A stretch of DNA of 49,465 nt from Myxococcales bacterium (GTDB taxonomy: Bacteria > Myxococcota_A > Polyangia > GCA-2747355), in NCBI GenBank assembly GCA_020431405.1, contig JAGQIK010000651.1, positions 1 through 49,465 of the forward strand, in the 5' to 3' direction. A program made the position numbers and the translations under genes. Under the pieces are notes generated by a model. The model was given only the letters and a program-made list of their open reading frames with translations. It was not told the origin of the DNA and searched no databases. Below, piece by piece: positions 6,967 through 26,735 of the stretch (its first letter is position 1; every line of letters starts with the position of its first letter).

Positions 6967-7000
6967 ATCAACAAAGGCTCCATCGGTGGAGGTAGCGCTC

Positions 7001-9670
7001 ATGTCCCTTCGCGCGCTCGGCTTTGCTTTGCTGCTCGGCCTGACGGTGCTGCTGTCTGCAGCCTGCAGCGACGACTCGCCCAAATCGGACAGCGGCCCCG
7101 ACGCGGCCGACGCTGGGCCCGACGGCGATGGCGGCGGTGACGCCGCGCCGCCGCCCAAGAACATCTCGATCCCCGGCCTCGGTGCGCCGGTCGAGGCGGT
7201 CTACGATCAGCACGGCATCCTGCACCTGCGCTGCAAGAGCGACGACGACTGCATGGCCGCGCTGGGCTACTTCCACGCGGCCAACCGCTTCTTCTTCATG
7301 GACTTCGCGCGCACGCTGATGCTCGGGCAGCTCTCCGAGATCTCCATCGCCGGCCAGCTCGCGCTCGACCGCGACTTCGCCACGCGGCATCTGATGTCGA
7401 CACCGGACGGCACACCGCTGGTGGACGCGTCGCTGGCCAAGCTCTCGGCCGGCACCAAGACGCTGCTCGATCGATATGCCGCCGGCGTCAACGCCTGGCT
7501 CGCCGATCTGGCCGCCGGCCGAAACGGCGCGAAGAAGTCCGACGAGTACGGCCTGGTGATCCTCGATCAGAAGCGCGTCATCCCGCAGTGGTCGGCCAAA
7601 GACACGCTGGCCGTGGGGCTGTTTCTGATCAACGACCTCGGCAACAGCAGCGACGCCGAGCTGACCGGCGCCGACATCGCCGCCAGCGTCAGCGACAGCA
7701 AGCTCGTCTCCGACCTGCTCACGCCGCGCCCGGTGTTTCAGGAGTTCATCACCACCGGCGCCGGCATCCCGTTCAGCTTCGGCGGCAAACCGCCGCTGCT
7801 CGCGCTCGAGCACCTGCGGCGCGCCAAGAGCGCGATCCGCAGCGCCCGCGCGTACCTCGCGCCGCTGGCGCGCCGGCCGCTCGGCGAAGGCTCCAACAAC
7901 TGGCTCGTGAGCAAGACGCTGAGCGCCAACGGCCGCGCGCTGCTGGCCAACGATCCGCACCTGACGTTCTACAATCCGGCGATCTTCTTCCCGGTGGAGA
8001 TCGACGCGACCAGCGACGGCGGAACGGGCACGCTGCACTGCGGCGGCGGCACGGTGCCAGGCATGCCGTTTGTCTTCGTCGGCCGCAACGAGTCGATGGC
8101 CTGGGGCGTGACGACGGCCTACTACGATCTCAACGAGCTCTACATCGAGAAGCTCAGCGACGACGGCAGCGCGGTGATCTTCAACGGACAGCAGGTCAAG
8201 CTGATCCAGAAGGAGCTGACCTTCAAGGACGCCTCCAGCGGCCAGGACGTCAAGAAGACGTTCGAGTGGGTGCCGCACCACGGCCCGCTGATCTCCAAGG
8301 ACACGGCGAGCAAGACCGGCGTGAGCATGCGCTGGGTCGCCGCCGACGGCGTCACCGATCCCGACGCCTTCTTCGAGCTGATGCGCGCCAAGAAGGTCGC
8401 TGACGTGCCCAAGGCGCTCGAGAAGCTGACGGCCACCAACCAGAACTTCATCATCGCCGACAGCGAAGGCAACGTCGGCTGGTTCCCCTACGCCAAGATC
8501 CCGCAGCGGGCGTGGGCGAGCACGACGCTGCCGCCCTATCTGCCGGTGCCCGGCGACGGCACCGCCGAGTGGAACGGCTTCGTGCCCCTCGCCGATCTGC
8601 CGCAAACGCAGGATCCGCCCAACGGCTTCGTCGTCACCGCGAACAACGCCAACACCAGCGCGGTAGCCGACGGCGACGCGACCAACGACGGCAAGGCGTC
8701 GGTGCCGTACCAGGCGCTGTCCAAGGCGATCGGCGCGCGCGCGCTGCGCATCACGCAGATGATCAAAGACGGCGGCGACAAGCACGACATGGCGTCGATG
8801 GGCGTGATCCAGGGCGACACCAAGTCGGTTATCGGCGAGCTGGTGGTGCCCGCGCTGACGGCGGCGACCCAGGGCCAGACGCTCGGCGCCGGCGCCAAGA
8901 AGGTGATGGATGCCATCGCCGCCTGGAAATTCACATGCCCCACGGGTTTGTCGAGCAGCGATCCCAAGTCGGCCAAGAGCAGCGACGCTGCCGAGGTCAC
9001 CGACGCGATCGGCTGCACGGCGTTTCACGTGACGTTGGCCAAGATCATCGTGCTCGCCCTCGCCGACGAGGCCAAGGCCGCCGGCATCGAGATCCCCGGC
9101 CGCGCGCGCCTCAACCTGGTGCTCACCGCCATCGCCGAGCCGACGCGTATCCAGTCGACGTTCTGGGACGACGTCTCGACCAGCGGCACCACCGAGACGC
9201 GCGACGAGATCTTGCGCAAGGCGCTCGCCGAGGCCGCCACCGAGCTCGACAAGATCAACAGCGACCCCAACGAGTGGCTGTGGGGCCGCGTGCACACGGT
9301 CACGCTGGCCAGCCCGCTCGACGCCTTCGGCGTCACGTTCTTCAACTACGGCCCCTACGCCAGCGCGGGCGCGCTCGGCACGGTCAACGTCGCCGCGCCG
9401 ACGGTCTTTCGTGACGAGGCCTTCTCGGCGGTGACCAAGCTGCCGCTCGACCAGCAGCACGGCGCCTCGATCCGCATCATCGCCGAGGCCGGCGGCGGCG
9501 AGGTGAAGATGAAGCTGCAGCTTCCGGGCGGCACGGAGCACGATCCCAAGAGCAAGCGCTACAACCAGCTGCTCGAGGATTGGCTAGCCAACAAGTCGCT
9601 GGACTTTCCCTTCGGCGCAGGCGCCGTCACGTCGCCCGACGAGACGCTGCAAGTCAAGCCGGCGCAGTGA
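7001..9670 (+). CDS. Penicillin-acylase-family lipoprotein (Ntn hydrolase)
   Basis: 889-residue member of the penicillin amidase family, exported as a lipoprotein (lipobox LSAAC) with an Asp/Gly-rich linker after the lipid anchor. An alpha-subunit-like segment with ALGYFHAANR and FMDFARTL is followed by the autocatalytic junction GSNNW. Ser298 would become the N-terminal nucleophile of the beta chain, and the downstream ANDPHL motif is also conserved. The family cleaves amide-linked acyl groups (beta-lactams, acyl-homoserine lactones, lipopeptides); the substrate cannot be told from sequence. The ATG at 7001 has GGAGG nine bases upstream, better than the in-frame GTG at 6986. Its stop overlaps the next ATG, so it lies in the kinase-PEGA operon. 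A periplasmic or surface role is likely. Confidence 0.88.
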   Translation: MSLRALGFALLLGLTVLLSAACSDDSPKSDSGPDAADAGPDGDGGGDAAPPPKNISIPGLGAPVEAVYDQHGILHLRCKSDDDCMAALGYFHAANRFFFMDFARTLMLGQLSEISIAGQLALDRDFATRHLMSTPDGTPLVDASLAKLSAGTKTLLDRYAAGVNAWLADLAAGRNGAKKSDEYGLVILDQKRVIPQWSAKDTLAVGLFLINDLGNSSDAELTGADIAASVSDSKLVSDLLTPRPVFQEFITTGAGIPFSFGGKPPLLALEHLRRAKSAIRSARAYLAPLARRPLGEGSNNWLVSKTLSANGRALLANDPHLTFYNPAIFFPVEIDATSDGGTGTLHCGGGTVPGMPFVFVGRNESMAWGVTTAYYDLNELYIEKLSDDGSAVIFNGQQVKLIQKELTFKDASSGQDVKKTFEWVPHHGPLISKDTASKTGVSMRWVAADGVTDPDAFFELMRAKKVADVPKALEKLTATNQNFIIADSEGNVGWFPYAKIPQRAWASTTLPPYLPVPGDGTAEWNGFVPLADLPQTQDPPNGFVVTANNANTSAVADGDATNDGKASVPYQALSKAIGARALRITQMIKDGGDKHDMASMGVIQGDTKSVIGELVVPALTAATQGQTLGAGAKKVMDAIAAWKFTCPTGLSSSDPKSAKSSDAAEVTDAIGCTAFHVTLAKIIVLALADEAKAAGIEIPGRARLNLVLTAIAEPTRIQSTFWDDVSTSGTTETRDEILRKALAEAATELDKINSDPNEWLWGRVHTVTLASPLDAFGVTFFNYGPYASAGALGTVNVAAPTVFRDEAFSAVTKLPLDQQHGASIRIIAEAGGGEVKMKLQLPGGTEHDPKSKRYNQLLEDWLANKSLDFPFGAGAVTSPDETLQVKPAQ

Positions 9671-11823
9671 TGAGGGCGCTCGCATTGGCCGGCGCGCTGG
9701 CGCTGGCGACCTTCGGCTGCGCCGCCAGCACCAGCAAGGCGCCCGCGACCAAGAGCGCCAACACCTCGCGACGAGACCAGCCAGCGCGCATCCCGCGCGC
9801 GCTGCAGCGCGGCGGCGCCGTGGCGCGCCTGCTGCAGCGGCTGCCCGCGCGGCACGGCAGCTGGGGCGTGATCGCGAGCAACCTCTCGCGTCCGCTGGCC
9901 TACTGGGAAGGCATGCGCATGGCGTTCGCGGCCACGCCCACGGGGCGCGCGCTGCTGCCGATGGCCGAGGCGCGCATTCGCCACCCGATCGATGGACGCT
10001 CGCTGCGCGCGTTGCTCGATACGTGGGGCTTTGCCGTCGACAAGCCGCAAGGCGTGCTCTCTGGCCGCGGCCAGCGCCAGCTGCTGATCTTGAGCCTGCG
10101 CGACGCGGCGACCTTCCGCCTCGCCGTCGCGGCCGAGGCGAGCCGCATCACCCCCGCGCGCTGGACCGAGCAGCGCGTCGGCAAGCGCAGCATCTGGCAG
10201 TTTCTCAGCGGCCAGCACCAGCTGTGGGAGTGCGCGTTCGCGGCCGACGGGCCGAGCTTCTGCGCCTGGCGCACGCTCGGTCCTTTCAAGGACCTGCTCG
10301 ACGGCAAGGTCGAGTCGTCGGTGTGGTCGCGCCTCGACGCCAAAACGCGCGCGCGGCTCGAGCGCGGCCACAAGTCCGATCTCTTCGGCTGGCTGTTGAT
10401 CGCGCAGCAGGTGGCGACCGCCGATGCGAACCTGCGCGATGACGCGCTCTCGATCGCCCTCGATGTCGCCGGCCCCGGCATTGGCGCGGCCACCGCCGCA
10501 CTCGGCAGCTGGCCAAGCGGCGCGCTCTACGGCCGCTATCGCGCGCTCTCCGGCGAGCGCTTCTACCTGCGTTTGCCCCGGCGCTTGGTCACGCGTGTGA
10601 TGCGTACGCCGTTTACGAGCGGCTGGCCCTCGGGCGAGCTGTTGCTGGTGAGCAGCGGAAGGTGCGCGTTGCCCTCGCTGCTGCTGGGCAGCGACCGGCC
10701 GCAGCTGCTGGCGAAGATGATCCAGACCGTGCCCGCCTTGATGCAGCGCCTGCGCGCCAAGGTGACGTTCACGCCGCGCACCGTCGGCGGCCACCCTGCG
10801 CTCGAAGTCTCGGGGTTGCCTGCCAAGCTCTCTCTGATCCTGCCCAAGTCGATCGGCCTCGCCGCGACACCCAACGGGCTGGTGGTCGCGCCGTGGTCGT
10901 GCGTCAGCGAGGCCGTCGCCACGGCGACGCGCGCGTTCAAGGCGCCGCCGCCGCCGAGCGCCGGGCTGCCGGTCGCGGCCGGCCAGCTGGCCCTCGGCGA
11001 TCCCTTCGTCGCGCTGTGGCCGATCATCACCCAGCGCAGCGGCGGCCAGCTGCCGCCCAAGATCGCGCAGGCCTTCTCCGTGGCGCGCGTGCTCGCCTCG
11101 CAGCTTCACGACGTGCGCGGCACGGTGATGCTCGCGCGAGCGGCGGTGCAGGGGCGGTTCATCGTGCGACTGCGCCATCGCGGCGCCAAGGACGACGCCG
11201 CGCGCGCCCTGTGGCATCGGGCCGTGGCCGCGCGCACCCTCGGACAGAACGCGACGTTCAAGCAGATCGCCGCCGAGATCGCCAAGCGCGCGCCGGCGTC
11301 GCGCTACGCCCAGGCTGGCAAGGTGCGGCCGGTGATGCTGGCGCTGCTCGGCGGTGTGATGGCGTCGATAGCCATCCCTGCCTTCATCAAGTACCAGCGC
11401 AAAGCCAAGACCGTCGAAGCCACCGAGAGCCTCGACAAGCTGAGGGTCGGTGCGCGCCTCTACTATCGAGCCGATCACTACAGCAAGCGCGGCAAGCTGC
11501 TGCCCAAGCAGTTCCCGCGCGGTCAGACCGGCTGGACGCCGAAGCAGATCTGCTGCAAACAGCCGGGCGGCAAGTGTCCCGCTGACCGCAAGGTCTGGCG
11601 CAAGGACCCGTGGCGCGCGCTCAACTTCGAGATCAGCGAGGCGCACCGCTACCAGTATCGCTACCGCGCCAGCGGCAGCGGCAAGAAGTCGACCTTCGTT
11701 ATCGAAGCGCGCGGCGACCTCGACTGCGACGGCGTGTTCTCCAACTACAAGCTGCAGGGGGACATCGACCCGCAGATCGGCGTGCGCAGCGTCGGCCCGA
11801 TCATCGTCAACGAGATCGAGTAG
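9670..11823 (+). CDS. Large lipoprotein with a C-terminal type IV pilin-like domain
   Basis: 717 residues. The N-terminus is a lipoprotein signal (lipobox ATFGC). Residues about 60-540 form a domain that is not recognised. From about residue 553 a hydrophobic helix followed by IAIPAFIKYQRKAKT resembles the N-terminal helix of type IV pilins and pseudopilins. A small soluble domain follows with paired Cys (ICC, GGKC, DLDCDG), as in minor pilins. The usual prepilin-peptidase site (G/F-T-L-x-E) is absent. The ATG overlaps the acylase TGA, so the two are translationally coupled. It may be an envelope protein that uses a pilin-like module to meet a pilus or type II machinery; this is inference. 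Confidence 0.75.
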   Translation: MRALALAGALALATFGCAASTSKAPATKSANTSRRDQPARIPRALQRGGAVARLLQRLPARHGSWGVIASNLSRPLAYWEGMRMAFAATPTGRALLPMAEARIRHPIDGRSLRALLDTWGFAVDKPQGVLSGRGQRQLLILSLRDAATFRLAVAAEASRITPARWTEQRVGKRSIWQFLSGQHQLWECAFAADGPSFCAWRTLGPFKDLLDGKVESSVWSRLDAKTRARLERGHKSDLFGWLLIAQQVATADANLRDDALSIALDVAGPGIGAATAALGSWPSGALYGRYRALSGERFYLRLPRRLVTRVMRTPFTSGWPSGELLLVSSGRCALPSLLLGSDRPQLLAKMIQTVPALMQRLRAKVTFTPRTVGGHPALEVSGLPAKLSLILPKSIGLAATPNGLVVAPWSCVSEAVATATRAFKAPPPPSAGLPVAAGQLALGDPFVALWPIITQRSGGQLPPKIAQAFSVARVLASQLHDVRGTVMLARAAVQGRFIVRLRHRGAKDDAARALWHRAVAARTLGQNATFKQIAAEIAKRAPASRYAQAGKVRPVMLALLGGVMASIAIPAFIKYQRKAKTVEATESLDKLRVGARLYYRADHYSKRGKLLPKQFPRGQTGWTPKQICCKQPGGKCPADRKVWRKDPWRALNFEISEAHRYQYRYRASGSGKKSTFVIEARGDLDCDGVFSNYKLQGDIDPQIGVRSVGPIIVNEIE

Positions 11824-11839: not shown

Positions 11840-11857
11840 CCAGCAGCCTGCTACTGG
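11840..11857. terminator. Hairpin after the pilin-like lipoprotein gene
   Basis: An 8-bp stem with one G-U pair and a 2-base loop begins 16 bases after the stop at 11823. There is no T-run, so it may be a processing or stability hairpin rather than a simple intrinsic terminator. Confidence 0.4.
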
Positions 11858-12030
11858 CAGAACGCCTGCCACTCGTGCGAGGCCGAGTAGGCCGAGCCGG
11901 CGAAGCCGACATCAGGGGGTGAGGCCCGAAAAACGACGCTTTTTCGGGCCGAGGGGGCATGGGACATGCCCCCTTGGTAATTGTGGAGCGGTAGGCGTTC
12001 TGCCAACTACTGGCAGAACGCCTGCCACTC
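11851..12030. repeat. 24-bp direct repeat bracketing copy A of the element
   Basis: Positions 11851-11874 and 12007-12030 are identical over 24 bases. The second copy is the last seven codons and stop (ending EWQAFCQ) of the discoidin lipoprotein gene on the minus strand. The 156-base period contains the 100-bp element. It looks like an insertion or unequal recombination at the gene end. Confidence 0.75.
11876..11975 (+). repeat. Dispersed 100-bp intergenic element, copy A
   Basis: This segment is about 95% identical to the reverse complement of 28474-28574 (four substitutions and one extra base). It contains two internal hairpins: an 11-bp stem (GGCCCGAAAAA arms) and a 9-bp stem (GGGGGCATG arms). 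It carries no ORF. It lies between convergent genes and is flanked by repeated arms at 11851-11874 and 11983-12005. Confidence 0.85.
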
Positions 12031-12033
12031 CAC
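11983..12033 (-). terminator. Long hairpin spanning the stop codon of the discoidin lipoprotein gene
   Basis: The arms 11983-12005 and 12011-12033 pair over 23 positions with one G-U pair and one mismatch, around a 5-base loop that holds part of the TAG stop. One arm is coding sequence (the last codons), and the other is its inverted copy downstream. It probably acts as a bidirectional terminator or mRNA stabiliser between the convergent genes. Confidence 0.6.
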
Positions 12034-13224
12034 GATTAGCGGGTTCTTGAAGCCGCTGGAGTGTGCGTGGGCGTTGATCAGGCGCAGGCCCGTCGTCGTC
12101 ACCGGCGTGAAGGTGCGGCTCCAGTCGTTCGACTGGTTGGAGATGGTCGTGATCGTGACCCACGTCGAGCCCTGCAGGTACTGCAGCGTGCCGCCGGCGA
12201 GGGTGCGTCCGTTGCTGACCGTGAGGCCGCACAGCGTCGTCGAGGTGTAGAGGATCGTATCGAAGACCACGCGGCCGATGGTCACCGGCGCGGACCAGTT
12301 GTACTGGATCCAGTGCGCGCTGGTGCCGGCGCTGTTGGGTGCGTCGAGCCAGTGAAAGCGCGCCGTGGTGCAGTTGGACTGGCCGAAGCCGTCGTTCATC
12401 CTGTCGGGGCCCACGCCGTAGGTCGCTTGGCCGCCGCCGCTCGACGTCGCTGTCGCGGTCAACGCCACGTTGGTGCTCGGGTTGCACGGCGGCCCGCAGG
12501 TCGAGCCGTTGCAGACGTTGCTGCCGGTGCACGGCGGCCCGCTGCCGCAACGACAGCCGCTGGCGCCGGCGCAGGTCTCGCCCGCGCCGCAGAGGTTTCC
12601 GTCGTCGACGGTGCCATTGCAGTCGTCGTCGAGGCCGTTGCACGACTCGCTGCCGCTGCCCACGGCGACGTCGGGGACGCAGGTCGGCGCCGCGTTGCTG
12701 CCGGTGCAGGCTTTCTTGCCGGTGGAGCACACGCCGGGGAAGCCGGTGTTGCAGACCTCGCCGATGTCGTTGACGCCGTTGTTGTCGAAGTCGACCTCGG
12801 AGCTGTCGCCGTCGCAGTCGTTGTCGACGCCGCGATCGCTGCAGGTCTCGGGCGCGCCCGGATAGCGCGTCTTGTCGTTGTCGTCGCAGTCGTTGTGCGA
12901 CTGGCAGGTCGGCCCGACCTGCCCCGGGGCGCAGTGGCCGTCGCCATCGACGTCGTAGACGCCCGGCGTCGTGTCGGGCGCCAGCGTGTCGGGCGCAGGC
13001 GGTTTGGGGCCGTCGAATGCCTGCGGGCCATCGAACAGCTGCGGTCCATCGAAGGTCGGGCTGCGCGTGTCGTCGCTCGGGTTGCCGCCATCGCCGAAGT
13101 TGATGCCTTCGCCGCCCGGCCCGCCGCGCGTGTCGACGCGCGTTGCCGTCTCGGCCCCGCCAGCGCACGCGGCGCAGGCGAGCGCCAGGGCGAGGCCCAG
13201 CGGTGCGACCCGACGGTACGGCAT
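12007..13224 (-). CDS. Lipoprotein with MopE-type metal-binding repeats and a discoidin-like domain
   Basis: 405 residues. The lipobox is LACAAC. An Asp/Gly/Pro-rich linker contains three FDGP repeats (about 65-80). Residues 95-225 hold the Cys/Asp-rich pattern DCDDND..YPGAPE and DNDCDG, then CNGLDDDCNGTVDDG, which matches the putative metal-binding motif found in MopE-like proteins. The C-terminal 150 residues look like an F5/8 type C (discoidin) domain, with NVALTATATSS at its start and EWQAFC at its end. It is probably surface-exposed, binding metals and glycans or phospholipids. It lies 19 bases downstream of the hydrolase lipoprotein gene, so the two are probably one operon. The last codons also form the arm of a long hairpin. 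Confidence 0.82.
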   Translation of the reverse strand: MPYRRVAPLGLALALACAACAGGAETATRVDTRGGPGGEGINFGDGGNPSDDTRSPTFDGPQLFDGPQAFDGPKPPAPDTLAPDTTPGVYDVDGDGHCAPGQVGPTCQSHNDCDDNDKTRYPGAPETCSDRGVDNDCDGDSSEVDFDNNGVNDIGEVCNTGFPGVCSTGKKACTGSNAAPTCVPDVAVGSGSESCNGLDDDCNGTVDDGNLCGAGETCAGASGCRCGSGPPCTGSNVCNGSTCGPPCNPSTNVALTATATSSGGGQATYGVGPDRMNDGFGQSNCTTARFHWLDAPNSAGTSAHWIQYNWSAPVTIGRVVFDTILYTSTTLCGLTVSNGRTLAGGTLQYLQGSTWVTITTISNQSNDWSRTFTPVTTTGLRLINAHAHSSGFKNPLIVEWQAFCQ

Positions 13225-20099: not shown

Positions 20100-20846
20100 A
20101 TGTCTCCGAGCGCTCCAAGACGCGCCGTGGTCCTCGCCGCCGGCATGGGGACGCGGCTGGTGGAGACCTTCGACGGGCCCAAGCCCTTGGTGCCTGTCGC
20201 AGGCGTGCCGATCATCGTGCGCACACTGCGTGCGCTCGCGCTCGGCGGCGACGTGCGCGAGGCCTGCGTGGTGACGGGCTTTCGCGGCGACGAGGTGCGC
20301 GCCGGCGTCGAGTCGGCGGCCGCCGCGCTGCCGCTCGCGATCCGCTTCGCACAGAACGATCGCTGGGAAGAACCCAACGGCCTGTCGCTCGGCGCCGCGC
20401 GCGAGCTCGTCGGCGGCGAGAGCTTCTACCTCAGCATGGCCGATCACCTATTCGACCCACGCATCGTCGGGATGCTCGCCCAGTCGCCGCACCACGACTC
20501 GGTGCGGCTGGCCATCGACGAGAAGGTCGCCAGCGTCTTCGACTTCGATGACGCCACCAAAGTGCGGTGTGACAGCTCTCATCGCATTACGGCCATCGGA
20601 AAGCACATAGTTCCCTGTGACGCCGTCGACACCGGCGTCTTTTTGTGCACGGCGGAGGTCTTCGACGCGCTCGACGTCTCGGTAGAGCGCGGCGAGCGCT
20701 CGCTGTCGGGCGCCATGCAGGTGCTCAGCGAGCGCGGCAAGCTGCGCGGCGTGCCCATCGGTGACTGCCTGTGGCAGGACATCGACACGCCCGAGATGTA
20801 TCGCGTGGCGCAGGAGCTCGCCGTCAAGCTCGACGAGGTGCTCTGA
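20100..20846 (+). CDS. Nucleotidyltransferase resembling inositol-1-phosphate cytidylyltransferase
   Basis: 248 residues. The NTP-transferase signature LAAGMGTRL is at residues 13-21, KPLVPVAGVPI follows, and the metal-binding segment SMADHLF is near residue 117. The later part has TKVRC, ITAIGK and AVDTGVFLC, a pattern like IPCT enzymes that make CDP-inositol. The next gene is a CDP-alcohol phosphotransferase, so this enzyme most likely activates a polar head group (inositol phosphate or similar). The ATG at 20100 is preferred over a GTG 11 codons upstream. Its TGA overlaps the next ATG. The head group is inferred, not shown. Confidence 0.82.
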   Translation: MSPSAPRRAVVLAAGMGTRLVETFDGPKPLVPVAGVPIIVRTLRALALGGDVREACVVTGFRGDEVRAGVESAAAALPLAIRFAQNDRWEEPNGLSLGAARELVGGESFYLSMADHLFDPRIVGMLAQSPHHDSVRLAIDEKVASVFDFDDATKVRCDSSHRITAIGKHIVPCDAVDTGVFLCTAEVFDALDVSVERGERSLSGAMQVLSERGKLRGVPIGDCLWQDIDTPEMYRVAQELAVKLDEVL

Positions 20847-21823
20847 TGAGCCGAATGCCGCCGTTTTCGTCGCTGCTCAAGTCCCGCGAGGTCGAAGACC
20901 CGGTCAATCTGTGGATGCACCGGCCGATCGCCTACGTGATCGCGTCCGGCCTCTACCGCACGCCGGTCACGCCCAACCAGATGACGCTCGTCGCGATGCT
21001 GGTGGGGTTCGCCGCCGGCGCGCTGTGGTTGGTCGGCACGCCGACGATGATCATGATCGGCGGGATCCTGCTCTGGTCGAGCTCGATCCTCGACGGCGTC
21101 GACGGCATCCTCGCGCGCGCCAAGAACATGTCCTCCGACATCGGGCGCGCGCTCGACGGCACCGCCGACGTCTTCGTCGTCACCGCCACCGTGGTGCCGG
21201 CCTTCATCTATCTGCTGCGCACCTACGACCAGGTGAGCCTCGTCACGCTGCTGGCGATGATGGTCGTCGCGGTGATCACCACCCTGCCGCAGATCTATCT
21301 CTACGATTACTACAAAGAGGTCTATCTGCACGCCACGCGTCCCGGCGAGGAGCGCCGACGCGAGAGCGTCGACAAGGCCGAGGCGCGCGCGGCCAAGGCC
21401 AAGGCCGAGGGCGCGCCGATCTGGGTGCGCTTCTCGCTCAACGCCTACGTCGGCGTGCTGAAGAACCAGCAGCGCGTCGTGCGCCTGCTCAACCCAGCGA
21501 GCATCGACATCGAGCGCAGCGAGACCACCGAGAAGTCGGCCGAGATCTTCCGCCGCCACAACCACGGCCCGATGCAGCTGTGGACCTTCATCTCGCTTTG
21601 CCCGCACTCCTACCTGCTCGCCATCGCGGCGATCATCGGCCGCTTCGATCTGTACCTGTGGTTTCGCGTCGTCGGCGCCAACGCGTTGTTCATCATCGCG
21701 CTGATCTGGCAGCGCCACGCCAGCAGCCGCACGCTGGCCGAGGCCGAGCAGAGCGGGCTCGACTGGCCGGGCCACCATCACGGCCACGGTCACACGAGCG
21801 TCGGCGGTTTGCGCGGGTCCTAG
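20846..21823 (+). CDS. CDP-alcohol phosphotransferase
   Basis: 325-residue integral membrane enzyme. The full CDP-alcohol motif D-x2-DG-x2-AR-x8-G-x3-D-x3-D is present (DGVDGILAR, then G, then D and D), near residues 78-100. Several TM helices follow, with a charged cytoplasmic insert (about 160-215) and a His-rich C-terminus (HHHGHGH). It transfers a phospho-alcohol between CMP and an acceptor lipid or sugar. The tight junctions with both neighbours (overlap of 1 base, then no gap) place it in one lipid pathway with the cytidylyltransferase. The product may be a phosphoinositol-type lipid; the acceptor is unknown. Confidence 0.88.
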   Translation: MSRMPPFSSLLKSREVEDPVNLWMHRPIAYVIASGLYRTPVTPNQMTLVAMLVGFAAGALWLVGTPTMIMIGGILLWSSSILDGVDGILARAKNMSSDIGRALDGTADVFVVTATVVPAFIYLLRTYDQVSLVTLLAMMVVAVITTLPQIYLYDYYKEVYLHATRPGEERRRESVDKAEARAAKAKAEGAPIWVRFSLNAYVGVLKNQQRVVRLLNPASIDIERSETTEKSAEIFRRHNHGPMQLWTFISLCPHSYLLAIAAIIGRFDLYLWFRVVGANALFIIALIWQRHASSRTLAEAEQSGLDWPGHHHGHGHTSVGGLRGS

Positions 21824-22831
21824 ATGAAGCGAGCCCTCGCGTGGCTCGTCCCCGCGGCGGGCGCCGCCGTCGTCGTCTACCTCGTCATCGATCTCGGGCC
21901 GCGCCACCTCGCCGCGCAAGCGTCGCGCATGGGCTGGAGCATGGCTGCGCTGCTGGCGCTGCCGCTCTTTCTGTACGTCGTTCACGCCATCGGCTGGGGC
22001 TACACCATGTCGCCGGCCAACCGGCAGCGCGCCGGCCTGTGGCGTCTTACCGCGCTGCAGGCGTTCTCCTACGGCCTGTCCGGCGTTATCCCGCTGCAGG
22101 TCTTTGTCGCCGAGCCGCTCAAGCTCTCGTTTCTGCGCCACCCCGACTACGACCGCGCCGACCTCGGCGCCTCGGTGGTGCTCAACAACACGATCAACGG
22201 CGTGGCGATCGTGCTGTGGGCCATCGGGGGATTGCTCTACCTGGCGCTGGTGCTGGTCTCCGAGCCGTGGCTGCGCCTGGCGCTGATCGGCGCCACGCTC
22301 GCGCTGTGCGGCATCGTCGCGGCGCTGGTGCTGGTGCAGCGTCGCGGGCTGCTCTGCGGCATGCTCGGCCTCGCCGGCCGGCTCGGCTTTCGCGGCTTCA
22401 GCGAGCGGCACCTGCCCGCGGCGCGCCGCATCGACGACGCGGTGGCGGCGTTCTACCGCGAGCGGCGTGGCGCCTTCGCGGCCTCCCTCGGCTGTCACGT
22501 CGTCGAGAAGCTGCACGGCGTGGCCGAGTTCTGGGTCATCTTCAACGGCCTCGGCCTGCTCGTGTCGTGGGGCACCTGCTTCTTCATCTTCGCGGTGGTC
22601 AGCACCCTCGATAACGTGCTGTTCTTCGTGCAGCTGGGCGGTATGGAAGCCTGGGTGGCGTCGCTGTTGGCGCTGGTCAGGATCGATCGCCAGCGCGTCA
22701 ACATCACGGCGGCGCTCTTTCGCCGGCTACGCATGATCTTCTGGGCCATCGTCGCCGCGCTGGTAGCGTGGCCGGCGCGGCGGTTGATCGGCGATCACGC
22801 CGCGGTTGGCGCCGAAGAGTCACAGAGCTAG
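21824..22831 (+). CDS. LPG-synthase-TM-type (flippase-like) membrane protein
   Basis: 335 residues with about eight TM helices. The segment GVIPLQVFVAEPLKL near residue 90 and NNTINGVAI near residue 123 fit the lysylphosphatidylglycerol-synthase TM region family, members of which are thought to move or modify lipids (MprF flippase domain, glycosyltransferase partners). The soluble aminoacyl-transfer domain is absent, so a translocation role is more likely than synthesis. It starts directly after the stop of the CDP-alcohol enzyme. It probably flips the lipid made by the first two genes; this is inference from context. Confidence 0.8.
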   Translation: MKRALAWLVPAAGAAVVVYLVIDLGPRHLAAQASRMGWSMAALLALPLFLYVVHAIGWGYTMSPANRQRAGLWRLTALQAFSYGLSGVIPLQVFVAEPLKLSFLRHPDYDRADLGASVVLNNTINGVAIVLWAIGGLLYLALVLVSEPWLRLALIGATLALCGIVAALVLVQRRGLLCGMLGLAGRLGFRGFSERHLPAARRIDDAVAAFYRERRGAFAASLGCHVVEKLHGVAEFWVIFNGLGLLVSWGTCFFIFAVVSTLDNVLFFVQLGGMEAWVASLLALVRIDRQRVNITAALFRRLRMIFWAIVAALVAWPARRLIGDHAAVGAEESQS

Positions 22832-22849
22832 CGCCAACCTCACGGCCCG

Positions 22850-25234
22850 TTGAAAAAACCGTCCCCCACATCGCGCTGGGCGCGCTTTTCGGTCGAGCAT
22901 CGCTACAAGCTGCTCGTCGCGGTGGCCCTCTTGTGGGCTGCGGCGGCCTACGTGACTACCGGGCTCAAGTTCGACAGCTCGTTCTCGGCGCTGCTCGCGC
23001 CACAGACCCCCGAGCTGGTGGAGGTCAATCGCCTGCTGCGACGGGTCGGCGGCGCGGCCGAGCTGGTGGTCGCCATCGGCGGCAAGGACAAGCAGGCGCG
23101 GCTGCGCTTCGGCCGGCTGGTGGCCAACAAGCTGCGCGCGCGGCCTTGGATTCGCGGCGCCGATGTCGAATACCCGATCGAGTTCTTCCTCGACCGCAGG
23201 CTGATGCTGCTAAGCCTCGAGCGGCTCGAAAAGCTCGCCAAGCGCATTAGCGACGAGATCGACCGCGCGCGCGCGCGCAGCAACCCGCTCTACGTCGATC
23301 TCGAGGACGACGACAGCAAGAAGAAGGACGACAAGCCGCGCTGGCAGGCGCTGCGATCGGCCAAGCTCGGCCCGCAGCAGTCACAGCTCGCGCGCACCTT
23401 CGGCACAGCCGACGGCAAGTACCTCTTCGTGCGCGTCAAGCCGATGGGCGCGACCTACAACTTCGGCAGCGGCGGTGAGCTGCTGCGGCGCATCAAGGCC
23501 GACGTCGCGTCGCTCGATGCGGCGCGCCACGGCGTCACAGTGCGTTTTGCCGGCGGCCTCGAGATCAACCAAGAGCAGCACCGCCGCATGGGCTCCGATC
23601 TGCGGCGCGCCTCGCTGCTGTCGCTGGTCGCCATCGTGCTGCTCGTGACGGTCTACGTGCGCCGTGTCGAGGCCGTGCTGCTGCTGGCGGTCCCGCTGGT
23701 GGGCGGCGTGGTGACGACGCTCGGCCTGACGACGCTGATCATCGGTCAGCTCAACATCGTCTCCGGCTTTCTCGTCAGCGCGCTGTTCGGTCTCGGCATC
23801 GACTTCGCGATCCATCTCTACCTGCGCTACCTCGAACGGCTCGACGCCGGCGACGACCGCTTCGACGCCATGCGCGACGCCATCGCGCACACCCTCACGC
23901 CGTGCGTGACGGCGGCGCTGACCACCGCAGGCGCCTTCTTCGCGATGGCCTTCGCCAACTTCCGCGGCTATCGCGAGTACGGCATCATCGCCGGGGCGGG
24001 CGTGCTGATCACGCTGGTGACGATCTTCGTCGCGCTGCCGCCGCTGGCGCTGTTGACCAGCCGCAAGCCGCGTCGCCGCGGGCGTCGCACCCCGCGCGCG
24101 CCGCGCCGCGGCGTGATCCTGGCGATGGTGCTGATCGGCAGCGCGCTGTTTGTCGGCGCCGCGATCAAAGCGCCCGAGGTGCGCTGGCACAACGACTTCC
24201 GCAAGCTGCGCGGCACGTCGGCGGCGGTGGACTTCAGCATGCAGGTTGGCAAAGCGCTGGGCGGCGATCTATCGCCGGCCGCGGTCTACGTGGAAAACCT
24301 CGACCAGGCGCGGCGCGTGGTGAAGTACGTCGAGGCGCGCTGGGAGCGCGGCCCGAGCTCGCCCGTGCGCTACCACCTCTCGCTATCGCAGATGGTGCCG
24401 CACCGGGCGGCCGCTAAGCAGAAGGTGCTCGCCGCGCTGCAGACCAAGCTCGAGAAGCTCGCGCGCCGGCCGCTCGACAAGACCGATCGTGCGCGCGTCG
24501 ACGAGCTGCTCCGCCTCGTCAAGGTCAAGCCGTGGACACTCGCCGACGTGCCGGAGGTTTTCCGGCGGCCGCTCTCCACGCTCGACGGGCGCGGCCAGCT
24601 CGTCGCGCTGTGGCCGCGCCATAACACCGACATCGATCGCGAGATCATCGCCTGGGCCAAGGTGCTCGACACGGCGCGCAGAGAGCTGCACAAGCTCGGC
24701 ATTCCCGCGCAGATGATGGACGAGAACCGCGTCTCCGCGCGCGTGCTGAGCGAGATGCGCGCCGACGCGCCAGTGGTGCTCGGCGCCGCCGCTGCCGTGG
24801 TGCTGTTGGTGCTGATCGTGCACTTCCGGCGCCCGCGCCACGTCGCCATCGTCGCCGGCAGCCTCGTGGTGGGCATGGTCTGGATGCTCGGCCTGCTCGC
24901 GGTCTGGAACATCGACCTCAACGTATTCAACCAAGCGGTGCTGGCGACCATCATCGGCGTTGGCATCGACAACGCGGTGCACATCTATCATCGCGTCGTG
25001 CGCGAGGGGCCGCGCGCCCTGCCGCAAGTGCTGCAGACGACGGGCTCGGCGGCGCTGCTCGCGTCGGTGACGACCGCGCTCGGTTTCGGCACGGCGATCA
25101 CGGCCTCGCATCTGGGCATCCAGTCCTTCGGTTGGCTCGCCATCGCCGGCCTGAGCAGCGTCTTCGTGGCCACCACGGTGTTCTTTCCAGCGGTGCTGCT
25201 GCTGACGACCGGGCGGCGCGAGAAGGGCGAGTAA
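22850..25234 (+). CDS. MMPL/RND-family lipid exporter
   Basis: 794 residues with the RND/MMPL layout: TM1 near residues 22-42, a periplasmic loop to about 255, TM2-6 at about 258-405, TM7 near 422, a second loop to about 640, and TM8-12 to the end. The segments FGLGIDFAIHLYLR and IGVGIDNAVHIYHR mark the paired TM4-like helices, with an Asp in each, as in HpnN-like exporters. No partner periplasmic adaptor is next to it. A TTG start is used, 18 bases after the upstream gene. It probably moves a lipid from the inner membrane toward the outer membrane, linking the synthesis genes and the barrel gene. Confidence 0.86.
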   Translation: MKKPSPTSRWARFSVEHRYKLLVAVALLWAAAAYVTTGLKFDSSFSALLAPQTPELVEVNRLLRRVGGAAELVVAIGGKDKQARLRFGRLVANKLRARPWIRGADVEYPIEFFLDRRLMLLSLERLEKLAKRISDEIDRARARSNPLYVDLEDDDSKKKDDKPRWQALRSAKLGPQQSQLARTFGTADGKYLFVRVKPMGATYNFGSGGELLRRIKADVASLDAARHGVTVRFAGGLEINQEQHRRMGSDLRRASLLSLVAIVLLVTVYVRRVEAVLLLAVPLVGGVVTTLGLTTLIIGQLNIVSGFLVSALFGLGIDFAIHLYLRYLERLDAGDDRFDAMRDAIAHTLTPCVTAALTTAGAFFAMAFANFRGYREYGIIAGAGVLITLVTIFVALPPLALLTSRKPRRRGRRTPRAPRRGVILAMVLIGSALFVGAAIKAPEVRWHNDFRKLRGTSAAVDFSMQVGKALGGDLSPAAVYVENLDQARRVVKYVEARWERGPSSPVRYHLSLSQMVPHRAAAKQKVLAALQTKLEKLARRPLDKTDRARVDELLRLVKVKPWTLADVPEVFRRPLSTLDGRGQLVALWPRHNTDIDREIIAWAKVLDTARRELHKLGIPAQMMDENRVSARVLSEMRADAPVVLGAAAAVVLLVLIVHFRRPRHVAIVAGSLVVGMVWMLGLLAVWNIDLNVFNQAVLATIIGVGIDNAVHIYHRVVREGPRALPQVLQTTGSAALLASVTTALGFGTAITASHLGIQSFGWLAIAGLSSVFVATTVFFPAVLLLTTGRREKGE

Positions 25235-25268
25235 CTGCCGCCCAGGTGCGCTATTGTCGGCGCGTCCT

Positions 25269-26735
25269 ATGAGGAGCCGTCGCGCCGGAGCGCCGCGCGC
25301 CATCGCGCTGGGTGTGGCGCTGATGCTGGGTGCGAGCAGCGCGATCGCCGCACCGACGTCGCAACCGACGTCGCAGCCGGCGTCGTCACCGGTGCAGCAC
25401 GCGGGGCGATCGATTCAGCCGACGTCGCGACCGGTGCAGCACACGGCGGCCTCGGTGGCCGGCGCACCGCGACCTGACGAGAGCTCCGGCCGTCGAAGAG
25501 CGCCCGCCACGACCACGGCGAACACGCTGCGCTGGATCCCGCGCGTGCTCTTCTTCGTGCCGCGCTGGGCCTTGACCGCCGTCTTTCTGCCCATGCGGGG
25601 ACTGTCCTATCTGTGGGACCGCTACCAGATCGGCGAGCAGCTCACCGACATCTTCTTCAACGACGAGCGCACCTTCGGCATCTACCCGGTGGTCGAGATC
25701 CAGACCGGCTTTGGCGCCAACGTCGGCGCCGGCATGGTCTATCGCAACATCTTCGGCCGCGACGAGCGCTTCGCCGCGCGGGCGAGCTTTGGCGGGCGTT
25801 ATCTGCAGCACTACGCGGCAGACCTGGTGAGCGGCAAGCGCTGGCTGCCGCTGCACCTCACGCTCTACGGTGGCTATCACGTCGGCAACAACGAGCGCTT
25901 CTATGGCTTCGGCAATGGCGACGAGGCGCGCATCGACGGGGTCGCGCGCGACGCGCTGCTGCGCGGGCCCGCCTTCGGTGCGCGCTATCGCTACGATCGT
26001 GGCACTGTCGGCGTCACGGCGGCGCTGCGCCTGATGCCGCGCGTGTCGTTGCGGCTCGGCACGCGCCTCACGCGCCAGACCTTCTTCGACGAAAACGCCA
26101 GCGTCAGCGGCGATGAGGCCATCGAGCGCGTCTTCGAGCCGCAGACGCTGGTCGGCTTCGAGCGCGACCTGGCCAACCTCGACAGCAGCGTCGAGCTGCG
26201 CATCGACGCGCGCACGCGCGCGAGCATCTACGTGCCGCCGGCGATGTACTCGAGCGGCCCCTTCTTGTCGGCCAAGCTCAGCTACGTCGAAGGCTTTGGC
26301 CCCGATCCTTCCAACTACGTGCGCTACCTGCTGGACGCCAGCTACACGTTCGACCTCTTTCAAGGCACGCGCACGCTCGAGCTGCGCCTGCGGCTCGAAG
26401 GCGTGTCGGCCGAGCTCGAGCGGCTGCCCTTCAGCGACGCGCCGCAGCTCGGCGGCGGTCAGCTGCTGCGCGGCTACCTGCCGGGGCGGTTTCGTGATCG
26501 CGTGGCGCTGCTCGGCTCGGTGCAGTATCGCTTCACGGTCACTCATCACGTGCTCGCCTACCTGTTCGTCGACAGTGGTCGTGTCTACGACGACATCTCG
26601 TCGGTGAGCTTCAGGCAGCTTCGCGTCGGTTTCGGCGGCGGCCTCGTCGTGCACCGTTTTATCGAGGGCTTTGCCCTCACCGCGCAGCTCGCAGGCACGC
26701 CCGATGGTGACGTGCGCTTCGACCTGCAGTTCTAG
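25269..26735 (+). CDS. Outer-membrane beta-barrel protein, BamA/Omp85 (surface antigen) type
   Basis: 488 residues with a signal peptide (ending SSAIAAP), then a Thr/Ser/Gln/Pro repeat stretch (TSQP, PVQH units, about 28-65), and then a long series of alternating beta strands to a terminal DVRFDLQF, the kind of C-terminal strand recognised by the BAM complex. The segment LGGGQLLRGYLPGRFRD near residue 395 fits the conserved RGY element of bacterial surface antigens. POTRA domains are not evident. The preferred ATG at 25269 is 34 bases after the exporter gene. It likely forms the outer-membrane end of this export operon. Confidence 0.8.
   Translation: MRSRRAGAPRAIALGVALMLGASSAIAAPTSQPTSQPASSPVQHAGRSIQPTSRPVQHTAASVAGAPRPDESSGRRRAPATTTANTLRWIPRVLFFVPRWALTAVFLPMRGLSYLWDRYQIGEQLTDIFFNDERTFGIYPVVEIQTGFGANVGAGMVYRNIFGRDERFAARASFGGRYLQHYAADLVSGKRWLPLHLTLYGGYHVGNNERFYGFGNGDEARIDGVARDALLRGPAFGARYRYDRGTVGVTAALRLMPRVSLRLGTRLTRQTFFDENASVSGDEAIERVFEPQTLVGFERDLANLDSSVELRIDARTRASIYVPPAMYSSGPFLSAKLSYVEGFGPDPSNYVRYLLDASYTFDLFQGTRTLELRLRLEGVSAELERLPFSDAPQLGGGQLLRGYLPGRFRDRVALLGSVQYRFTVTHHVLAYLFVDSGRVYDDISSVSFRQLRVGFGGGLVVHRFIEGFALTAQLAGTPDGDVRFDLQF

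Follow-up and report, generated by a model that had tools for sequence, protein, structure and literature searches.

The locus and its surroundings

The window, meaning the whole analysed stretch of 49,465 nucleotides (contig JAGQIK010000651.1 of the Myxococcales bacterium assembly GCA_020431405.1), carries the gene of P0001, a protein of 717 residues in which a type IV pilin-like tail follows an exported carrier. The features considered here are listed below.

6986–9670, plus strand: penicillin amidase family gene, upstream of the graft gene (PF01804, E 1.3e-141)
9670–11823, plus strand: graft gene P0001, 717 aa (ORF call; ATG overlaps the upstream stop; N-terminal export signal)
9670–9720, plus strand: signal peptide and putative lipidated Cys17 (sequence; Cys also in long-carrier relatives)
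9814–11178, plus strand: N-terminal carrier module, residues about 49–503, alpha/beta, two lobes (AlphaFold; profile homology)
11182–11316, plus strand: helical hairpin, residues 505–549, TPR-like (AlphaFold helices 509–523 and 527–540; Foldseek)
11335–11469, plus strand: pilin alpha-1 helix, residues 556–600 (AlphaFold; P570 corresponds to pilin Pro22)
11470–11820, plus strand: type IVa pilin globular head, residues 601–717, Cys 628/629/636/686 (prepilin identity; 8tj2_A; Cys pattern)
11978–12038, no strand: 28-bp inverted repeat (89%) between two convergent genes (repeat analysis)

P0001 is read in a single uninterrupted frame from the ATG at 9670 to the stop codon at 11821–11823. The stop of the penicillin amidase gene and this ATG form an ATGA overlap at 9668–9672, which suggests translational coupling of the two genes; no penicillin amidase gene was found at the locus of the nearest P0001 carrier homologue (L040). 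As the genome sequence is in draft state, with 733 contigs, an assembly or frame artefact fusing two genes was considered, but we find it hardly credible given the unbroken frame, the position of the joint inside a 49-kb contig and the recurrence of the order carrier, hairpin, helix and head on homologous carriers in independent genomes.

A Pfam scan of 15 ORFs of the window recognised no T4P or T2SS family over cutoff. Between the convergent genes, the inverted repeat, possibly a terminator common to both, is accompanied by a 29-nt direct repeat (93%); the repeats at 11846–12038 could represent a copied terminator. Opposite the graft gene, a 695-aa antisense open frame (9559–11646, minus strand) is probably no gene, similar frames being common across this high-GC window. 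Further downstream (20771–26735), genes for a CDP-alcohol phosphatidyltransferase, an LPG-synthase-like TM protein, an MMPL transporter and Omp85 stand in series and possibly constitute a lipid-export cluster.

The pilin tail

After about 550 residues of P0001 comes KVRPVMLALLGGVMASIAIPAFIKYQRKAKT, followed by a cysteine-bearing end, and the single helix predicted for residues 556–600 contains IAIPAFIKYQRKAKT. The preliminary description of this locus had proposed a pilin-like domain at the C-terminus of a lipoprotein, its helix internal and its prepilin-peptidase site missing, and the evidence given here agrees with it on each of these points, the lipoprotein nature of the carrier being probable. 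Upstream of the helix there is neither a leader nor a [G/A]-[F/M]xxxE prepilin-peptidase site, and the residue in the place of Glu5, when numbering is set by the pilin proline (P570 = P22), is Arg.

The tail aligns with L003, a prepilin of the same genome that is complete and begins with the standard GGFTLIE, at 50% identity over 167 aa (E 2e-61, 168 bits). This alignment is not due to chance, since 307 of 1000 shuffled controls gave any alignment and the highest reached 23.5 bits. When a profile of six grafted heads (A2) was searched against PDB sequences, the 14 distinct sequences found at E <= 1 were all pilin, geopilin, fimbrial or pilus proteins, with M. xanthus PilA as the best match (7e-9). 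For 11 of these sequences, the match begins at chain residue 12 or 13, so that the leader and some 11 residues behind it correspond to the lost part. The NCBIfam Myxococcota PilA model NF041775 matched the tail at E 4.6e-5, with a score of 23.5 that is far below its cutoff of 400.

Structure prediction, on which the preliminary description had staked the fold, gave a pilin-like helix and head resembling the M. xanthus pilus subunit. AlphaFold model 1, built from 12 sequences, contains a 48-residue helix (554–601) and head blocks with pLDDT 58–90, while its carrier is poor. Model 2, built from 24 long-carrier sequences, reaches a mean pLDDT of 73.6 and pTM 0.58 with head blocks at 66–94, and its confidence is low at the carrier–tail joint (residues 554–563). 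The M. xanthus type IV pilus subunit ranks fifth for model 1 (Z 6.5, 113 aligned residues, 3.9 A) and first for residues 558–717 of model 2 (8tj2_A, Z 6.7, 109 aligned residues, 2.8 A). These structural matches come solely from VIA re-alignment, as Foldseek alone matched neither model to a PDB entry at E <= 0.001. The Z values are middling, and the identification of the tail is therefore carried by the sequence evidence.

P0001 thus displays an alpha-1 helix with a hydrophobic first half and Pro22, followed by a pilin-homologous head in which 628–636 and 629–686 are the probable disulfide pairs. Judged by sequence and models, its final ~165 residues represent a true type IV pilin that lacks only what precedes about mature residue 12.

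N-terminus and carrier module

P0001 starts with MRALALAGALALATFGC, a hydrophobic signal spanning residues 1–17 with Cys17. Its lipobox, TFG-C, is weaker than the consensus: Gly at −1 fits, whereas Phe at −2 and Thr at −3 do not. A Cys at residues 14–24 after a hydrophobic stretch is present in 19 of 19 long-carrier relatives with a complete N-terminus, three truncated rows of the 22 being left out of this count. From these features, P0001 appears to be exported and is probably lipid-anchored. For M. xanthus lipoproteins, a published study describes Lys at +2 as an inner-membrane signal and Ala at +7 as a matrix signal (PMC3222651). P0001 has Ala at +2 and Lys at +7 and hence carries neither of them, which by analogy would suggest a location in the outer membrane.

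The carrier module is predicted with ten-residue blocks mostly at pLDDT 53–96 and falls below 50 at residues 431–458. Neither a Pfam family at E <= 10, N_methyl included, nor specifically a Pfam TPR or the DUF3352-type domain that we had expected was matched in P0001, and a search of the carrier against PDB sequences returned nothing credible. For the hairpin that joins carrier and tail, Foldseek lists the YbgF TPR structure 2xev at probability 0.97 over 44 columns and 1.2 A, yet with E 1.8; the row gives no residue range, and we infer that it falls on residues 505–549. A match of the carrier to DcrB (Z 9.0 over 89 residues) was obtained with the poorer AlphaFold model only, while the better model returned TP0453 at Z 6.4 and nothing reaching Z 8, with DcrB unlisted. 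In the poorer model, residues 124–213 look like DcrB and Eag chaperones (Z 7.7–9.0), a likeness that the better model does not repeat. Eag chaperones hold transmembrane helices.

Copies in the same genome and in relatives

A search of the own genome with the tail gave nine places, P0001 among them, and eight loci, again including P0001, were read. Two of them, L003 and L008, are prepilins. In L002 and L005 the pilin tail is preceded by several hydrophobic segments, and L002 has a DUF4190 match of E 7.8e-7 that lies under the family cutoff. L004 and L006 are proteins with a signal and Cys that keep the head and have no hydrophobic helix, and L007 is a short anchored form. The genome also encodes a prepilin peptidase, a single ORF combining the one A24_N domain found (E 2.6e-33) with a Peptidase_A24 domain, and it yields 13 N_methyl matches, so the normal pilin route exists beside the graft.

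P0001 has matches at E <= 1e-5 in 49 of 59 related genomes (the own one counted), and the tail alone accounts for almost all of them. We collected 161 loci with 160 distinct domain-bearing frames, 100 with and 60 without a prepilin motif; as the loci were partly chosen for long frames, this ratio is no frequency, and the 60 include contig-edge fragments, so that not every one is a graft. The prepilin label was given by a regular expression that requires Glu5, which makes its presence in 84 of 84 prepilins true by construction and the absence of the motif from grafts partly so. For tree building, 129 of the 160 frames (84 prepilins and 45 grafts) were retained after removal of eight hand-listed frames and of rows with E > 1e-27 or fewer than 95 model positions. 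By hand label, the 45 grafts comprise 25 fused forms with the helix, 10 without a hydrophobic helix, 7 polytopic and 3 short ones.

A class-wide search with a graft alignment (A1) found 18 places in 17 of 289 genomes that span the model from <=60 to >=470; 11 of these are members of A1 itself, and only about four candidates were scored per genome. In a draw over the whole phylum, which took in the own genome and class, 31 of 235 genomes had matches at E <= 1e-40, and further families outside the class were among them. Of ten of its loci that were read, only L204 proved to be a prepilin; in the remaining nine, helix and head are preceded by something different from a prepilin leader, two of them, L199 and L202, being repeats of proteins already in L066 and L087. 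The MAG labels of the relatives are Myxococcales, Myxococcota, Kofleriaceae, Nannocystaceae, Polyangium, Deltaproteobacteria, Proteobacteria and bacterium. The pilin tail on unrelated exported proteins is hence a recurrent architecture across the phylum; the preliminary description, which had considered a lone protein, was correct about the graft and too narrow in scope.

Two loci of the phylum-wide draw, L196 and L197, look like minimal grafts that consist of a lipobox, a short helical hairpin, the pilin helix and the head. A ParA/MinD-like ATPase, assigned by eye from its P-loop, is encoded near a graft at L043 (4852–6303, minus strand) and has relatives in L152 and L153, which makes three loci with such a gene.

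Carrier families and origin of the tail

Grouped by BLAST, the carriers form five clusters with at least three members each, the pair of P0001 and L040, and singletons. Profile comparison links P0001 and L040 to five other long carriers (probability 97.8%, E 6.7e-13, 491 columns). The long-carrier model A5 found 32 places in 20 of 317 genomes and did not find the own genome of P0001 at E <= 1e-6, so that the kinship of P0001 with the long carriers rests on the profile–profile comparison. In the 24-row alignment of long-carrier proteins (A7), whose tails were classed by reading, a T4P head terminates ten rows, 13 have little beyond the helix, and the tail of the last, L173, is of a different kind; P570, the pilin proline, is the sole invariant column. 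The closest homologue of the P0001 carrier, L040 (4787–6616, minus strand), is among the 13 and stops right after the pilin-like helix, without a head. The L173 tail had been taken by eye for GspG, an assignment that was dropped when Pfam gave no match.

Homology between the short carriers (A3) and the P0001 carrier was likewise abandoned, profile comparison giving only 12.7% and 8.1%, and no Pfam match is shared among the 16 short carriers examined. At L112, a signal-bearing carrier that belongs to one of the BLAST clusters ends in a T2SS GspG head (T2SSG, E 1.4e-18); together with the T4P heads elsewhere, it shows that tails of two filament families sit on carriers without detectable kinship.

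In a quick tree of the 129 rows, 14 changes separate grafts from prepilins. A more careful tree of 79 rows, whose bootstrap had not fully settled, joins the P0001 head to three same-family prepilins and two further grafts from the same genome (forks 97/78 and 81/93), and groups the long-carrier heads of family f13 with an f13 prepilin (100/98). Graft heads thus appear, on the basis of these sequence trees, to follow the resident pilins of the host rather than the carrier. An AU test of all 11 long-carrier heads as one group, a group picked after viewing a tree, rejected this arrangement (p-AU 0.0017). It follows from test and tree that one carrier family obtained, or swapped, resident pilin tails more than once, and both gain and replacement by recombination fit.

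That fusions arose or were replaced repeatedly, and that the head is absent in some relatives, would also be expected of a decaying remnant of an accidental fusion, but conservation makes this reading very improbable. Helix and head are 56–73% identical and the carrier 43–57% in 5 of 5 pairs from seven proteins, and dN/dS, from crude counts on high-GC genes, is lower in helix and head (0.45–0.80) than in the carrier (0.56–0.87) in 5 of 5 pairs; a decaying part would not be the more conserved one. The head is, furthermore, intact with four cysteines, and the identical architecture occurs in many families. Of the 'domesticated remnant' proposed in the preliminary description, the first term fits, while the second is contradicted by the stronger conservation of helix and head and the invariance of P570.

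All 25 helix-keeping grafts retain the proline, compared with 77 of 84 prepilins, and none of the 25 has Glu5. In the heads, 43 of 45 grafts have an even number of cysteines, and in 45 of 45 the aligned Cys columns, four in number, behave pairwise: C1 and C3 are either both present or both absent, and so are C2 and C4, as if two disulfides were retained or lost whole. Twelve of 84 prepilin rows break this pairing, possibly through misalignment. For M. xanthus PilA, two disulfides are described in PMC11046646, one of them (C95/C102) with a spacing similar to C1–C3. The paired head cysteines suggest an oxidising compartment.

A proposed fixed pilin module and its alternatives

We favour, with a probability of roughly 55%, the reading that P0001 carries a domesticated, non-polymerising pilin-fold tail on an exported envelope lipoprotein, built from a resident PilA-like gene. 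The pilin gene would have been fused to the C-terminus of the lipoprotein. In the process the leader, some 11 residues at the start of the mature pilin and, with them, the cleavage site and Glu5 would have been lost, and the rest of the helix, beginning near residue 12 and including Pro22, would have been retained together with the entire head. The pilin domain of P0001 evidently lacks, in both sequence and model, the prepilin-peptidase site as well as the N-terminus and Glu5 that serve in filament assembly. The export signal and the paired head cysteines would place carrier and head both outside the cytoplasm, in which case the helix is probably no membrane span of the normal-pilin kind and would more likely be held against the carrier, the membrane surface or a partner helix. 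Export of the carrier was the reason to give up a helix that spans the membrane like that of a normal pilin. The least certain step is that the tail would act as an anchoring or docking module that has lost its role as filament subunit.

That both parts lie outside and the helix is no simple membrane span is held with moderate confidence. The head is kept despite a lost hydrophobic helix in 10 of 45 grafts, as assigned by hand. However, 19 of 25 graft helices reach transmembrane level (Kyte–Doolittle 1.6 or more; mean 1.83, P0001 2.31) and may well insert into the membrane; positive flanks after the helix favour an N-out/C-in orientation with the head in the cytoplasm, contrary to the cysteine argument; cysteine pairing can be inherited rather than selected; and the P0001 lipobox, as read from its sequence, is off consensus.

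One alternative is a tail anchor, in which the helix would simply fix a periplasmic protein to the membrane by its C-terminus and the head would be cytoplasmic. The positive residues after the helix, the sufficient hydrophobicity of most helices and the 13 of 24 long-carrier proteins with just a short tail past it agree with such an anchor. We nevertheless judge it decidedly unlikely, as the cysteines are kept or lost in pairs as for disulfides, the pilin motif and the proline would be superfluous for a plain anchor, and ten grafts have the head without the helix.

A further alternative, in line with the docking of an uncleaved domain raised in the preliminary description and possible though unlikely, is that the helix pairs with T4P or T2SS pilins or with the platform protein, so that the lipoprotein is attached, capping or recruited while remaining uncleaved. 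Pilin motif and Pro22 are kept even in head-less relatives, with P570 invariant and 13 of the 24 proteins ending near the helix, and the separate carrier L112 with its GspG head means that both filament systems supplied tails. An A24_N peptidase domain occurs in 26 of 27 graft genomes, the exception being a genome 74% complete, an observation of little force as graft genomes only were counted. On the other hand, Glu5 and the free N-terminus, which are used for filament assembly, are gone, no T4P or T2SS family lies among the 15 ORFs of the window, and a bulky N-terminal module would be expected to clash within a filament. Nor was a widely shared neighbour gene found among 50 graft loci, where the largest neighbour cluster (11 loci) consists, by eye, of frames overlapping graft genes and the others comprise <=5 loci.

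Relation to known pilins

Compared with the fixed pilin module that we favour in P0001, a more speculative proposal would see the Myxococcota proteins as 'inverted modular pilins', i.e. exported proteins whose uncleaved pilin or pseudopilin helix serves as a docking plug for T4P or T2SS. If true, cargo could be attached to pili or pseudopili, or their base capped, without prepilin peptidase. The defining mark of a pilin is an N-terminal signal cleaved by a dedicated peptidase. The inverted arrangement of the grafts is not predicted by current pilin rules, and it raises the question of what a pilin helix can do when it is neither cleavable nor polymerisable.

The P0001 tail shares the helix-plus-head fold and Pro22 with Myxococcota PilA (PDB 8TJ2, PMC11046646, NF041775), and its two probable Cys pairs compare with the two disulfides described there for the PilA head (PMC11046646). 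Unlike PilA, P0001 has no leader, cleavage site or Glu5, and its helix is internal behind a carrier of ~550 residues. In modular pilins such as S. sanguinis PilB and PilC, an N-terminal pilin with a class III signal peptide is followed by an extra module (PMC8179133), and the pilin module with this signal comes first in the published examples (PMC8179133, PMC10191384). P0001-type grafts resemble them in joining a pilin to non-pilin modules with many unrelated partners (PMC8179133), but differ in their reversed order and in a Sec/lipoprotein-kind signal in place of the class III signal. As the modular pilin census starts from the N-terminal class III signal (PMC8179133), a signal-less class of grafts behind unrelated exported domains would escape such signal-based surveys. 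Within the open-licence literature, no paper was found on a fused, internal or C-terminal pilin-like domain, a grafted modular pilin or a DUF4190–pilin protein.

Cyanobacterial 'type IV pilin-like G/H' proteins (PF16734) include pilin-like domains on other proteins; P0001, in comparison, matches no Pfam family. With regard to T2SS GspG (PF08334), the L112 carrier of like layout has a GspG head, whereas the head of P0001 is PilA-type. At L112 (2876–5586), two adjacent signal-bearing proteins share a common carrier, one being helix-only and the other ending in the GspG (T2SSG) head.
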